Positions 23,969-28,580 of a DNA stretch of 64,000 bases are shown here, piece by piece (position 1 is the stretch's first letter; each line of letters begins with the position of its first letter). Position numbers and translations under genes: made by a program. Below the pieces are notes generated by a model that ran no database searches, was not told the origin of the DNA, and saw nothing but the letters and a program-made list of their open reading frames with translations. Origin of the DNA: Chryseobacterium gleum (GTDB taxonomy: Bacteria; Bacteroidota; Bacteroidia; Flavobacteriales_D; Crocinitomicaceae); the NCBI GenBank assembly GCA_945902775.1, contig CAMDMY010000001.1, positions 1-64,000 of the forward strand, in the 5' to 3' direction.

Positions 23969-26725
23969 GTGACTATGAACTTTAAATTTTTCTTCTTGTT
24001 CCTATTTCTAATTACTTTCTTTAGTAAAGGAAATGCGCAAGAGATGAAGATAACCGGGACAGTTTTTGATTCATCTGGAGTTAAGCCACTTTCACAATCC
24101 TTAGTTATGGCAGTGAGGGTAAGAGATTCAATCTTACTCAATTTTACAAGAACGGATAAGAATGGATTTTTTGATTTAAAGAATGTCCCAATTGATACAT
24201 TTTCTTTACAAATACTATCGCCTGGTTTTGATAGAAAGATCTATTATATTTTTGGAAGTCAGACAAATAAAGAGATTTCAATTCCGAAAATCAAACTTTC
24301 GATAGAGTCCAAGGAATTAGAAGATGTAGTGATTTACGCCAATAAAAATCCAATTTATTACAAAGGAGATACATTGGTATATGTTGCTGATTCTTTTAAA
24401 GTTGGAGAGAACGCAGTAGTAGAAGATTTACTAAAAAAATTACCCGGAGTAAAAGTCGATAAGGACGGAGCGATTACTTCTCAAGGAAAGGAAATTACCC
24501 AAGTTTTAGTAGATGGAGATGAATTTTTCGGGAGTGATCCAACGATTGCGACGAAAAATCTAGCGGCAAAAGGAGTAGAATCGGTAAAAGTATATGAAAA
24601 GAAAAGTGAGACAGCTTCTGCAGGTGATGACGCTACCGTTCAAGTAATGGATTTACGTTTAAAGGCAAATGCTAAAAATGGATACTTTGGGAAAATTTCA
24701 GCAGCTTCTGATTTTCAGAATTTTCACGAAGGTGAATTATTACTAAATAAATTTAAAGGAAGTCAAAAAATATCTGTTTTTGCTTTGGGTTCAACTACAC
24801 CAAGAACCAATGTGAGTAGAGCAGATATGAATAAATTCGGTTTGGATAATGGAACATCTGGAGGAGGCCCATTTCAAGGAGGAAATAATAATTCAACCAA
24901 AGCTGCTGGTGTTCCAAGAACATTCTCAAGTGGAGTCTATTACAGTGATAAAATAGGAAAGAAAAAGCAAACAAAAATAGGTTTTAACTATACTTATAAT
25001 AAGTATGAACTAACCTCATCTTCAGCAAGTAGATCAAAATTCACACTACCAACCGATACAAGTTATTATTCAGATGATTCAACTCATTCGGTTGATTTAA
25101 GTGAATCACATAAAATTAATTTCAGTGTATTTTCTCAAATTGACTCTTTAACAACCTTGGAAATAAAGCCAAAAATAAATGTGAGTTCAGGAAGTCTTTC
25201 TACTGCTAATATATCTAATTATCTAAATGAAAATGAAATCCTTTCTAGAAATAGTATCATTCAAAATTCAACTACTTCGACGGGTATTTCGTTAGATAAC
25301 GATGCGACTTTCATTCGGAAATTTATGAAGCCTAAGAGACAGTTTAGTGTTAATTATGATCTATCTACTTCGAAAGGAAATTCAACAGGAACGCTTCAAA
25401 CAAACAATACGTTTATTGCAGTTAATGGCGTAAATGATACGATTCAACAAGAAAAACTAAATACGACGCAAGCACAAACTCATATTGGAACATTCACCTA
25501 TACAGAACCGCTTTTCAAAAAATTGAAATTGGAGTTTGAATATTTACTTGAGTATGGACTTTCATCACAAGATAAAGAAACAAAAGACGGAGTAAACGGT
25601 GTTTATTCAACTATCAATACTGCGCTTACTAATAATTTTGAAAACACAAGAAAACAAAATCGTTTTGGAACAAGTTTGATTTTTGAGTCAAGAACACAAA
25701 CCATTTCAGGAGGATTAAGAGTGAGAAATGTCGATATTGATAATCATAACATTACCACTTCAACAACGATTCATCAAAACATCTCTAATTTCTTACCAAA
25801 GTTTACTTATATGTATAAACCGAGTCTGAGTAAGAAAATCAGTTTCAATTATATTACTAAATCTAGTCAGCCTGCTATCAACGATTTACAGTTGGTTCAA
25901 AACAATACCAATCCGAATAAAATTGTAATCGGTAATCCAGATTTAAAACCGAATTATGAGCATAATTTAAACATCAATCTAAACAGTTGGTCGGCACTTT
26001 CAGGAAGATATGTTTGGGCAGGATTTAATTCTACAGTCACCAATAATGCATTTGCCACTTCGACAATGTATGATCAATACGGAAGAACGATTGCGCAAAC
26101 AGTAAATGTGGATGGAAATGTATCTTCCTCCCTAAATACGAGTGCAGGATTTCCTTTCTTCAATAAACGATTTGAAATTTCACCAGGTGTAAATGCAAGT
26201 TATTCGAAGTACTCAAATTTGGTGAATAGCAATAGAAACACTACGACTAATCAAGCGATTACGACTGAATTAGAGTTTGAGCTAAAGCTAGATTCACTTC
26301 AAATTACATTGGGAGGAAAATATACCTACAACGAACCTAAAAACTCAATCAGTACAATAACAACGAATCCTTATTCTATCAAAGTATATTCAGCTGATGT
26401 AACTTGGACATTGCCTCGCAAATTCAAGATTGTAACAGATGCAACTTATACGATGAATGGACAAAGGGCAAATGGGTATAATATCAATTATTTTGTTTGG
26501 AATGCAGCAGTTAGTAGAACGTTTACGAAGACAGATAATTTAGTTGTTTCAGTAGCAGGAAATGACATCTTAAATCAAAACATTTCAGCTTTGAGAACGG
26601 TCAATGGAAATATTACAACCGATAATCGCACAAAAATTATTTCACGTTATTTTCTTTTAAAGTTGGTGTATAAATTCAACAACAACAAGACCAAAGAAGA
26701 AGACGCAAGAGGCGGATGGCATTAA
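23969..26725 (+). CDS. TonB-dependent receptor-like outer membrane beta-barrel protein
   Basis: Carboxypeptidase-like N-terminus, plug 'VEDLLKKLPGVKVDKDGAITSQGKEITQVLVDGDEFFGSDP', aromatic strands. Confidence 0.85.
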   Translation: MTMNFKFFFLFLFLITFFSKGNAQEMKITGTVFDSSGVKPLSQSLVMAVRVRDSILLNFTRTDKNGFFDLKNVPIDTFSLQILSPGFDRKIYYIFGSQTNKEISIPKIKLSIESKELEDVVIYANKNPIYYKGDTLVYVADSFKVGENAVVEDLLKKLPGVKVDKDGAITSQGKEITQVLVDGDEFFGSDPTIATKNLAAKGVESVKVYEKKSETASAGDDATVQVMDLRLKANAKNGYFGKISAASDFQNFHEGELLLNKFKGSQKISVFALGSTTPRTNVSRADMNKFGLDNGTSGGGPFQGGNNNSTKAAGVPRTFSSGVYYSDKIGKKKQTKIGFNYTYNKYELTSSSASRSKFTLPTDTSYYSDDSTHSVDLSESHKINFSVFSQIDSLTTLEIKPKINVSSGSLSTANISNYLNENEILSRNSIIQNSTTSTGISLDNDATFIRKFMKPKRQFSVNYDLSTSKGNSTGTLQTNNTFIAVNGVNDTIQQEKLNTTQAQTHIGTFTYTEPLFKKLKLEFEYLLEYGLSSQDKETKDGVNGVYSTINTALTNNFENTRKQNRFGTSLIFESRTQTISGGLRVRNVDIDNHNITTSTTIHQNISNFLPKFTYMYKPSLSKKISFNYITKSSQPAINDLQLVQNNTNPNKIVIGNPDLKPNYEHNLNINLNSWSALSGRYVWAGFNSTVTNNAFATSTMYDQYGRTIAQTVNVDGNVSSSLNTSAGFPFFNKRFEISPGVNASYSKYSNLVNSNRNTTTNQAITTELEFELKLDSLQITLGGKYTYNEPKNSISTITTNPYSIKVYSADVTWTLPRKFKIVTDATYTMNGQRANGYNINYFVWNAAVSRTFTKTDNLVVSVAGNDILNQNISALRTVNGNITTDNRTKIISRYFLLKLVYKFNNNKTKEEDARGGWH

Positions 26726-26736
26726 ATTATAGAGAG

Positions 26737-27453
26737 ATGAATAAAATATATTTAATAGGATTTTTTATCTTAAGTTCGTTCGTTGGTTTTTCTCAAATTA
26801 ATGCAGGAAAAATAGTGTTCGAGCGAAGAACAAATCTTGATAAACAAATCATTGACGGAAGAATGAAAAGTCAAGTCAATGAAAACAATAAAATTAGAGT
26901 AGAACTTTTTGATTTATATTTCAATGATACCTGCTCCATATTTAAACCGATCTTATCAGATGAAGCCGATCCGTTGAGTTGGGCTACAAGTAAGAACACC
27001 ATTTTACAAAACTTTAAAACCAATCAAAAAATCTATCAGTTGAGTACAGCCGGTCAGCAAGTTTTTGTGAAAGATGTCAATAAAAGAAGAGACTGGAAAA
27101 TAACAGAAAGTAAACGAAAAATTGCCAATTACGATTGTTACAAAGCCATTTGGCAAAAAAACGATACGACAAGAATCTATGCTTGGTTCTCTTTGGATAT
27201 AGTTCCAACAGTTGGTCCAGAAGGATTTGACGGCTTACCTGGAGCAATATTAGGATTAGCAACAGAAGATGGGGGAATTATTTATTTCGCTAAATCAGTA
27301 GAGATAATTGTCCCGATGCAAGAAATTTTCAAAATAGATACAGGCAAGAAAGATGTTTATTCGATGGAAGAATTGAAAACAAAAATTGAAAAGGACTTTG
27401 GAAATACTTCACGAGGAAAAAGAATGTTTAACGATTTATTTCGGTGGATGTAG
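26737..27453 (+). CDS. GLPGLI family protein
   Basis: 'WFSLDIVPTVGPEGFDGLPGAILGLATEDG'; typical downstream partner of the preceding barrel gene. Confidence 0.85.
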   Translation: MNKIYLIGFFILSSFVGFSQINAGKIVFERRTNLDKQIIDGRMKSQVNENNKIRVELFDLYFNDTCSIFKPILSDEADPLSWATSKNTILQNFKTNQKIYQLSTAGQQVFVKDVNKRRDWKITESKRKIANYDCYKAIWQKNDTTRIYAWFSLDIVPTVGPEGFDGLPGAILGLATEDGGIIYFAKSVEIIVPMQEIFKIDTGKKDVYSMEELKTKIEKDFGNTSRGKRMFNDLFRWM

Positions 27454-27478: not shown

Positions 27479-27867
27479 GTTGTTAGGGATCAACGCCAAA
27501 AGTTGGGGACTAATTTTTTGTATACTTGAACCAAATAGACATGTATTTGCGAAGCACTATTATGAATTTGGTCTTTTTACCGAATTAGCTGTAAATTTTT
27601 CCGTAATCGCGTTTCGCTTTTTCAGCGAAAGAGAGCGTGAAGGAAAGTATTTACGTGCGGTTTCACTTCACTAGCTATGTTTGTTGATTTTATATAACCT
27701 AAATGAAGTGAAAAATTCCTTAGAAAGAACCTTGATTTTTGCTTACTTTTTATCAAGAAAAAGTAAGAGAATGATAATCTAAGTTTGATTAGTAAAGTTA
27801 AATTATTCTTTACAATTGATGTAGAAATGTTTTCAATCCCCAACTTTTGCAATTGATCCGTTGTTAG
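27479..27867. mobile_element. MITE-like non-autonomous element (27487-27859) with 8-bp target duplication GTTGTTAG
   Basis: Ends GGATCAAcgccAAAAGTTGGGGA (27487-) and inverted GGATCAAttgcAAAAGTTGGGGA (-27859); GTTGTTAG on both sides (27479-27486, 27860-27867). No transposase ORF. Confidence 0.8.
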
Positions 27868-27907: not shown

Positions 27908-27957
27908 GGATAATTCACATAGAATAAGATTTAAATCCTATTCTATGTGAATTATCC
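27908..27957. terminator. 50-nt palindrome between convergent genes, probable bidirectional terminator
   Basis: GGATAATTCACATAGAATA-aGATTTAAATCc-TATTCTATGTGAATTATCC. Confidence 0.65.
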
Positions 27958-27983: not shown

Positions 27984-28580
27984 TTATTCGTTTTCCGCAA
28001 CTACAGAAGTAACTTCAGGAATATATTGTTTTAATAACATTTCAATACCACCTTTCAATGTTGCAGTAGAAGAAGGACAACCTGCACAAGAACCTTTTAA
28101 AAGTACTGTTACAACACCATCTTCATAGCTTCTGAAATCGATAGCCCCACCATCACCTTCAACTGCAGGACGAATGTATTCATCTAATAAATCAACGATT
28201 GCTTGGTCAAATTCTGAAGGAGCATATGCTTTTTTAGGCATATCTACTTTTGAGTTTTCAACTGGTTTAGGTTCAGGCATTTTGATTAAAACATCTTTTC
28301 CTTCTGTTAACCATTCTTTTAAGAACTCGCGTAAATCCATTAATACGAAATCCCAGCTCAAAGTTTCCATTTTGGTAATCGTAACAAAATTCGCGCTGAT
28401 AAAAACACCTTTTACAAAAGGGAAGTTAAATAATTCTTCTGCTAGAGGAGAATATCCTTTTGCTTCTGCTTGAGAAAAGAAATTTACAGTTGCATCGATC
28501 AAAATATGTTTGTTAGCAACAAACTTCATACTTGCTGGATTCGGAGTCATCTCCGCATATATAGTAACTGGTACGTTCAT
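27984..28580 (-). CDS. NifU family Fe-S scaffold protein (Nfu-like)
   Basis: Nfu N-terminus (ANKHILIDATVNFFSQAEAKG) and 'LLKGSCAGCPSSTATLKGGIEMLLK'. Confidence 0.92.
   Translation of the reverse strand: MNVPVTIYAEMTPNPASMKFVANKHILIDATVNFFSQAEAKGYSPLAEELFNFPFVKGVFISANFVTITKMETLSWDFVLMDLREFLKEWLTEGKDVLIKMPEPKPVENSKVDMPKKAYAPSEFDQAIVDLLDEYIRPAVEGDGGAIDFRSYEDGVVTVLLKGSCAGCPSSTATLKGGIEMLLKQYIPEVTSVVAENE

Follow-up and report, generated by a model that had tools for sequence, protein, structure and literature searches.

The intergenic region considered here belongs to a window of 64,000 nucleotides, by which we mean the whole stretch of DNA that was analysed, taken from a 3.09-Mb Flavobacteriales assembly made up of 168 contigs (G000). 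The region separates two converging genes, a Porph_ging/GLPGLI-type gene (26716-27453, + strand) and an Nfu/NifU gene (27984-28580, - strand), and it contains a 373-bp transposon of this freshwater Flavobacteriales bacterium that carries no coding gene (27487-27859; Table 1). The inverted ends of the element are 23 nt long and complementary at 20 of 23 positions (87%). Both sides carry the end sequence GGATCAA-n4-AAAAGTTGGGGA, and the 8-bp sequence GTTGTTAG directly adjoins each of them. Inside the element, there is no transposase ORF and no ORF of at least 80 amino acids. Just outside it, still between the converging genes, stands a 25-bp, 96% palindromic hairpin (GGATAATTCACATAGAATAAGATTT and its complement, 27908-27957), the placement of which is terminator-like.

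Table 1. Features of the element and of its target site (window positions).
Feature	Position	Strand	Basis
Left target duplication copy GTTGTTAG	27479-27486		Read directly; occurs once in each empty site (G006, G007)
Left terminal inverted repeat GGATCAACGCCAAAAGTTGGGGA	27487-27509		End type also follows the ISAon1 transposase C-terminus in G013 and in G034
Structured core; copies lacking the ends occur elsewhere in the genus	27570-27767	+ (inferred)	Conservation profile, covariation, strand asymmetry of mismatches
Closing stem, 5' strand GGTCTTTTTACCGAATT	27570-27586	+	Helix 3; pairs with 27714-27731
Long inner stem, 5' strand GTAAATTTTTCC	27591-27602	+	Helix 5; pairs with 27642-27654
Hairpin TTTCGCTTTTTCAGCGAAA (TTTCGCT-TTTTC-AGCGAAA of the sequence-only reading)	27612-27630	+	Helix 7
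Long inner stem, 3' strand GGAAAGTATTTAC	27642-27654	+	Helix 5
Hairpin TTTCACTTCA...TGAAGTGAAA, loop variable in length and sequence	27661-27713	+	Helix 4; C-G to U-A in 16 of 35 copies
Closing stem, 3' strand AATTCCTTAGAAAGAACC	27714-27731	+	Helix 3
3' hairpin CTTACTTTTT-ATCAAG-AAAAAGTAAG, preceded by CTTGAT	27731-27767	+	Helix 1 covaries
Right terminal inverted repeat TCCCCAACTTTTGCAATTGATCC	27837-27859		Inverted-repeat comparison
Right target duplication copy GTTGTTAG	27860-27867		Read directly; single in the empty sites

Insertion and copy family

Orthologous intergenic regions were located in the genus via an Nfu protein search and then read. In G006, the Nfu/GLPGLI region is uninterrupted and its sequence, GATTAGCTGTTAGTTTTTAGGAATTAGTTGTTAGGCTGTGTTTAA, corresponds to the flanks of the window without the element, with one GTTGTTAG. 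The orthologous site of G007, slightly diverged, is uninterrupted as well and also has a single GTTGTTAG. The element was inserted at this place and 8 bp of the target were duplicated; the comparison with empty sites of relatives had been set beforehand as the refutation test of this claim.

The element is not alone in its genome. A search with its sequence gives 41 matches, corresponding to about 40 copies, and a core 18-mer, with at most two mismatches, occurs 38 times; both counts derive from sequence searches. Within the genus, mostly in four congeneric genomes, 72 copies were scanned, and 12 of them have both ends and matching flanks, with an 8/8 duplication in 7 cases and a 7/8 duplication in 5. 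The duplications differ from copy to copy. The exact ones, in the strand read, are CTAACAAC (window copy), GTTAATTT, ATTATATT, GGTTTTGT, CCCTTCTC, AAATTCAG, and GAATTTCC, and random pairing of left and right flanks yields no match. With terminal inverted repeats, a duplication accompanied by an empty site, many copies and no transposase gene, the element is a member of the MITE kind. The sequence-only reading, which had described inverted ends, an 8-bp target duplication and the absence of a transposase ORF, and which had called for a genome search for further copies, is borne out on these points by the sequence itself, the empty sites and the independent copies.

Beyond this genome, an exact core 20-mer compared with GTDB genomes is found in three other MAGs of the genus (CANFRV, CANCQX, and CAMDAO records, the last being labelled Chryseobacterium gleum), and one similar copy occurs in a MAG labelled Chitinophaga pinensis. 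Matches of the 20-mer in Bacteroidales and Sporosarcina show no similarity beyond the 20-mer. Carriage by phages or plasmids is rejected, since no phage match was obtained and the plasmid matches are short ones to the 3' hairpin region, in two plasmids. In G003 and G001, several core copies are clustered (L123, L124, L125, L127), and what separates them includes a second repeat, GTAGAAACCGAATC(C/T)(C/T), and its complement.

Ends and candidate mobiliser

An 8-bp duplication and GG ends are compatible with IS1595, and an IS1595-like mobiliser had been guessed from the sequence. However, a search for PF12762 in the 12 genomes of the genus detects no IS1595 transposase, and the IS1595 loci seen in other genera lack ends of this kind. 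Such ends instead flank ISAon1/ISL3 transposases. Mobilisation by an IS1595-family transposase is therefore rejected, and we regard it as highly improbable.

In the congeneric genomes G003 and G007, matches to PF01610 (ISL3) cover the last 37 transposase codons, at contig ends. Immediately after these fragments comes the end GGATCAAGTCGAATTGTTGTGGGGAGC, or a closely related version of it, nearly identical to an alternative end type of the MITE family, GGATCAAGTCATATTGTTGTGGGGAGC (L003, L026). In G013 and G034, from other genera, the C-terminus of the transposase is followed by GGATCAAGACCAAAAGTTGGGGACTA or a close variant, that is, the end type of the window element, and shared ends are also present in an almost full copy in G017. 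NCBIfam identifies these transposases as members of the ISAon1 family (NF049917), with an E value of 4e-112 for the longest. In addition, an ISAon1-like IS of 1417 bp in a Parabacteroides merdae plasmid has ends that match at 20 of 22 positions (GGCTCACCCGATAAATCAGGGG) and is surrounded by an exact 8-bp duplication, GTTTTATA.

Thus, the end plan and the duplication length of the element agree with those of ISAon1. The ISAon1/ISL3 IS of Bacteroidota (NF049917, PF01610) share with it the plan GG-A/C-TCA-n-GGGG and the 8-bp duplication, and one MITE end type is almost identical in sequence to the end found beside the ISAon1 transposase of congeneric genomes. In contrast, these IS are about 1.4 kb long with a transposase, whereas the MITE has 373 bp, no transposase, and an inside that is not IS-derived. 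It is because the ends are common to the MITE and to ISAon1 IS in congeneric and related genomes that ISAon1 is proposed as the enzyme. Neither NF049917 nor PF01610 has a match in the window's own assembly, which is fragmented. Hence, an ISAon1-type (ISL3-related) transposase probably moves the element in trans, and in this genome the family may no longer be able to move. The expectation of an autonomous IS with the same termini holds for congeneric and other genomes, where ISAon1 transposases have them, and not for G000, where none was found.

Structured core

The element is modular, with a conserved core between variable arms. In the - strand read, element positions 101-280 are alignable in 82-100% of 62 other copies, a value that is 67% just beyond, whereas the outer arms and the ends are alignable in 7-31% of them. 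The core amounts to 165-200 nt. About 20 copies consist of the core without recognisable ends; they begin near TCTCTTAC and stop near GAAAGACC-A/G-AATT.

A seven-helix model of the core leaves 97.5% of cells paired across 35 core copies, and 14 of its 56 pairs show changes of both partners. Shuffles give a mean of 3.4 covarying pairs and none of 500 reaches 14. Slid versions of the structure give 0-2, a comparison in which the model is favoured, having been drawn from the tested sequences themselves. RNAalifold, unaided, returns most of the same helices and also 14 covarying pairs. For the whole element, the folding z against shuffles is -5.1 on the + strand and -7.9 on the - strand, values that are due in part to the terminal repeats. 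The mismatches are distributed asymmetrically between strands: read on the - strand, there are 32 A-C vs. 2 G-T cells (16 vs. 2 positions, p 0.001), and the former are G-U on the + strand, which points to a folded + strand transcript. In the copies without ends, 15 compensated changes and 11 G-U changes are counted, with 5 other broken pairs, and 11% of unpaired positions are changed; such a pattern is expected if a + strand transcript has been under selection. Most likely, the core either functions as a folded transcript of this kind or descends from one. A structured transcript had also been suggested in the sequence-only reading on the basis of two internal hairpins; both are present (27612-27630 and 27742-27767), and the predicted fold finds support in the covariation and in the strand-biased mismatches.

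The 3' end of the core has the organisation CTTGAT-TTTTG-CTTACTTTTT-ATCAAG-AAAAAGTAAG, in which the loop is complementary to the upstream CTTGAT. This complementarity is invariant across the alignment, and the contact could possibly be a pseudoknot or an alternative pairing. A strict CTTACTTTTN{5,9}AAAAGTAAGCAAAAA hairpin pattern has one match in 395 other Bacteroidota genomes (G164:C2:692393-692430), with a loop that is not complementary to the tail. A phylum-wide hairpin is therefore rejected, the 3' hairpin having just weak relatives at the level of the order. Hairpins whose loop is complementary to a tail close by, like that of the core but with other stem sequences, were noticed in other genera or families of the order (L065, L066, L067, L068, L071, L075); in L067/L068, the CTTGAT/ATCAAG pair is apparently replaced by GGCC or GACC with GGCC. 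Recurrent places in the core hairpins also carry small inserts, some 20-45 nt long (such as GAGAAAGTACTACTTTCGAAGACAAGCGGTAGCGCCGGT), in both orientations (L229, L009, L010, L146, L164, L169, L175, L203, L217). Of two orthologous copies, L229 (G000:C140) has such an insert and L209 (G007:C20) is a plain hairpin.

Could the pairing be explained without a functional RNA? It may matter as DNA, if single-stranded or extruded DNA forms a hairpin while it is being transposed or replicated, or it may be kept by template-switch correction of quasi-palindromes. The core copies are mobile DNA, and when the - strand is read alone, both-side changes far exceed intermediates (48 vs. 2 cells), as such processes would have it. 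However, the excess of G-U on the + strand would not be predicted by a symmetric DNA process, unless one strand were exposed, and we hold this explanation possible but rather unlikely. That the core is a degenerate protein-coding sequence is far less credible still: one frame is open over the core in a few copies, but the copies differ by indels, and none of the six frames is free of stops in more than 2 of 35 copies. A coding sequence open across the 35 copies is thus rejected.

Known RNA families are rejected too, as Rfam has no credible match in the element. The whole window gives just one tRNA at the gathering score, and most low-E matches involve eukaryotic microRNA models and fall on the palindrome that lies outside the element. 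As for a RAYT/REP origin, Y1_Tnp is present in four genus members that have no core match, and Y1 genes also exist where the core occurs, so no RAYT link appears. The Y1 genes that were read are flanked by other repeats, and this origin is likewise rejected. At one locus (L360; G007:C191, 1-1100), a RAYT gene (Y1 transposase, 190 aa) with flanking CGCTCCGCTGGATTTGCAATCCTGCGG-type repeats is itself located within a core copy.

Origin of the core and comparison with known systems

Taken together, we favour, with a probability of about 0.72, an ISAon1-mobilised MITE that carries a structured, probably RNA-level core module. A transposase of the ISAon1 type would act in trans by recognising the GGATCAA-n4-AAAAGTTGGGGA ends, and its 8-bp staggered cut would produce the 8-bp target duplication. 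The 165-200-nt core, with its branched fold, would be a separate module between these ends. Its pairing would be kept after insertion, also in copies without recognisable ends, and it would act as, or stem from, a folded + strand transcript. The identity of the enzyme, the RNA product and any function are what we infer from the patterns described above.

The copies without ends may be either old insertions reduced to the core or a separate lineage, given that they lack ends and that most of those of G000 and G007 form one clade with long branches (support 93/83). To the first possibility, that they are old MITEs with decayed or deleted arms and that the core has no life of its own, we give even odds. 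The long branches favour it, as do the traces of outer sequence that some of these copies keep and the case of L225: set against the G006 empty site, this locus has an insert that exceeds the core in length and has AGTTATAAAC on either side, which argues in this one case for an old insertion that lost its outer parts. However, in L019, L027, and L228, the core lies 4-16 nt from a neighbour's stop codon, on one or both sides, and the copies without ends keep their pairing even though the arms are gone. One intergenic region has a copy without ends in G000, a MITE in G001/G003, and a different short hairpin sequence in G006/G007. More tentatively, and with less than even chances, the core may be an undescribed structured-RNA class (or RNA-like mobile unit) of Flavobacteriales that persists and spreads alone and was captured as cargo by ISAon1-mobilised MITEs, its fold being kept by selection after insertion and acting possibly at gene 3' ends.

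The placement of the copies bears on such a role. Where both neighbours were called, 12 of 23 copies lie between converging genes, vs. 5 of 46 gene pairs in the window (p 0.0006), the calls being simple ORFs and the background this single window. Such a bias would be expected if insertions upstream of genes are selected against, and a role at transcript ends would also account for it. Since the copies are mainly between converging genes, our working guess, held with low confidence, is that the core insulates or stabilises transcripts at gene 3' ends.

MITEs are usually regarded as empty shells between inverted ends. In the ISAon1-associated family, it is the centre that is conserved and the ends that vary, and old copies have compensatory changes of their own. 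ERIC and REP/BIME sequences are intergenic imperfect palindromes, and the core copies without ends, which are intergenic imperfect palindromes of about 165 nt present in tens per genome, resemble them. Unlike these, the core has no Rfam match and no RAYT link, and it is also carried inside an element that has terminal repeats and duplications. Among bacterial MITEs, RUP of Streptococcus pneumoniae and QMITE2 of Coxiella burnetii (review PMC10969869) are like the present element in being short, AT-rich, and intergenic, with terminal inverted repeats, target duplications and a foldable transcript, here a predicted one. The present element differs from them in that its core is better conserved than its ends, covaries with a preference for one strand, and also exists in copies whose ends cannot be recognised. 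No paper on ISAon1 or ISL3-family MITEs was found in the literature searched, and ISL3 is absent from a review of prokaryotic MITEs. The present element adds a MITE family to the ISAon1/ISL3 group. If the core is expressed, transposition, with ISAon1 as the candidate mobiliser, would supply the genome with tens of copies of a structured RNA. Finally, even if the MITE kind itself is known, the new aspect is an ISAon1-associated MITE whose structured core outlasts its ends in conservation.
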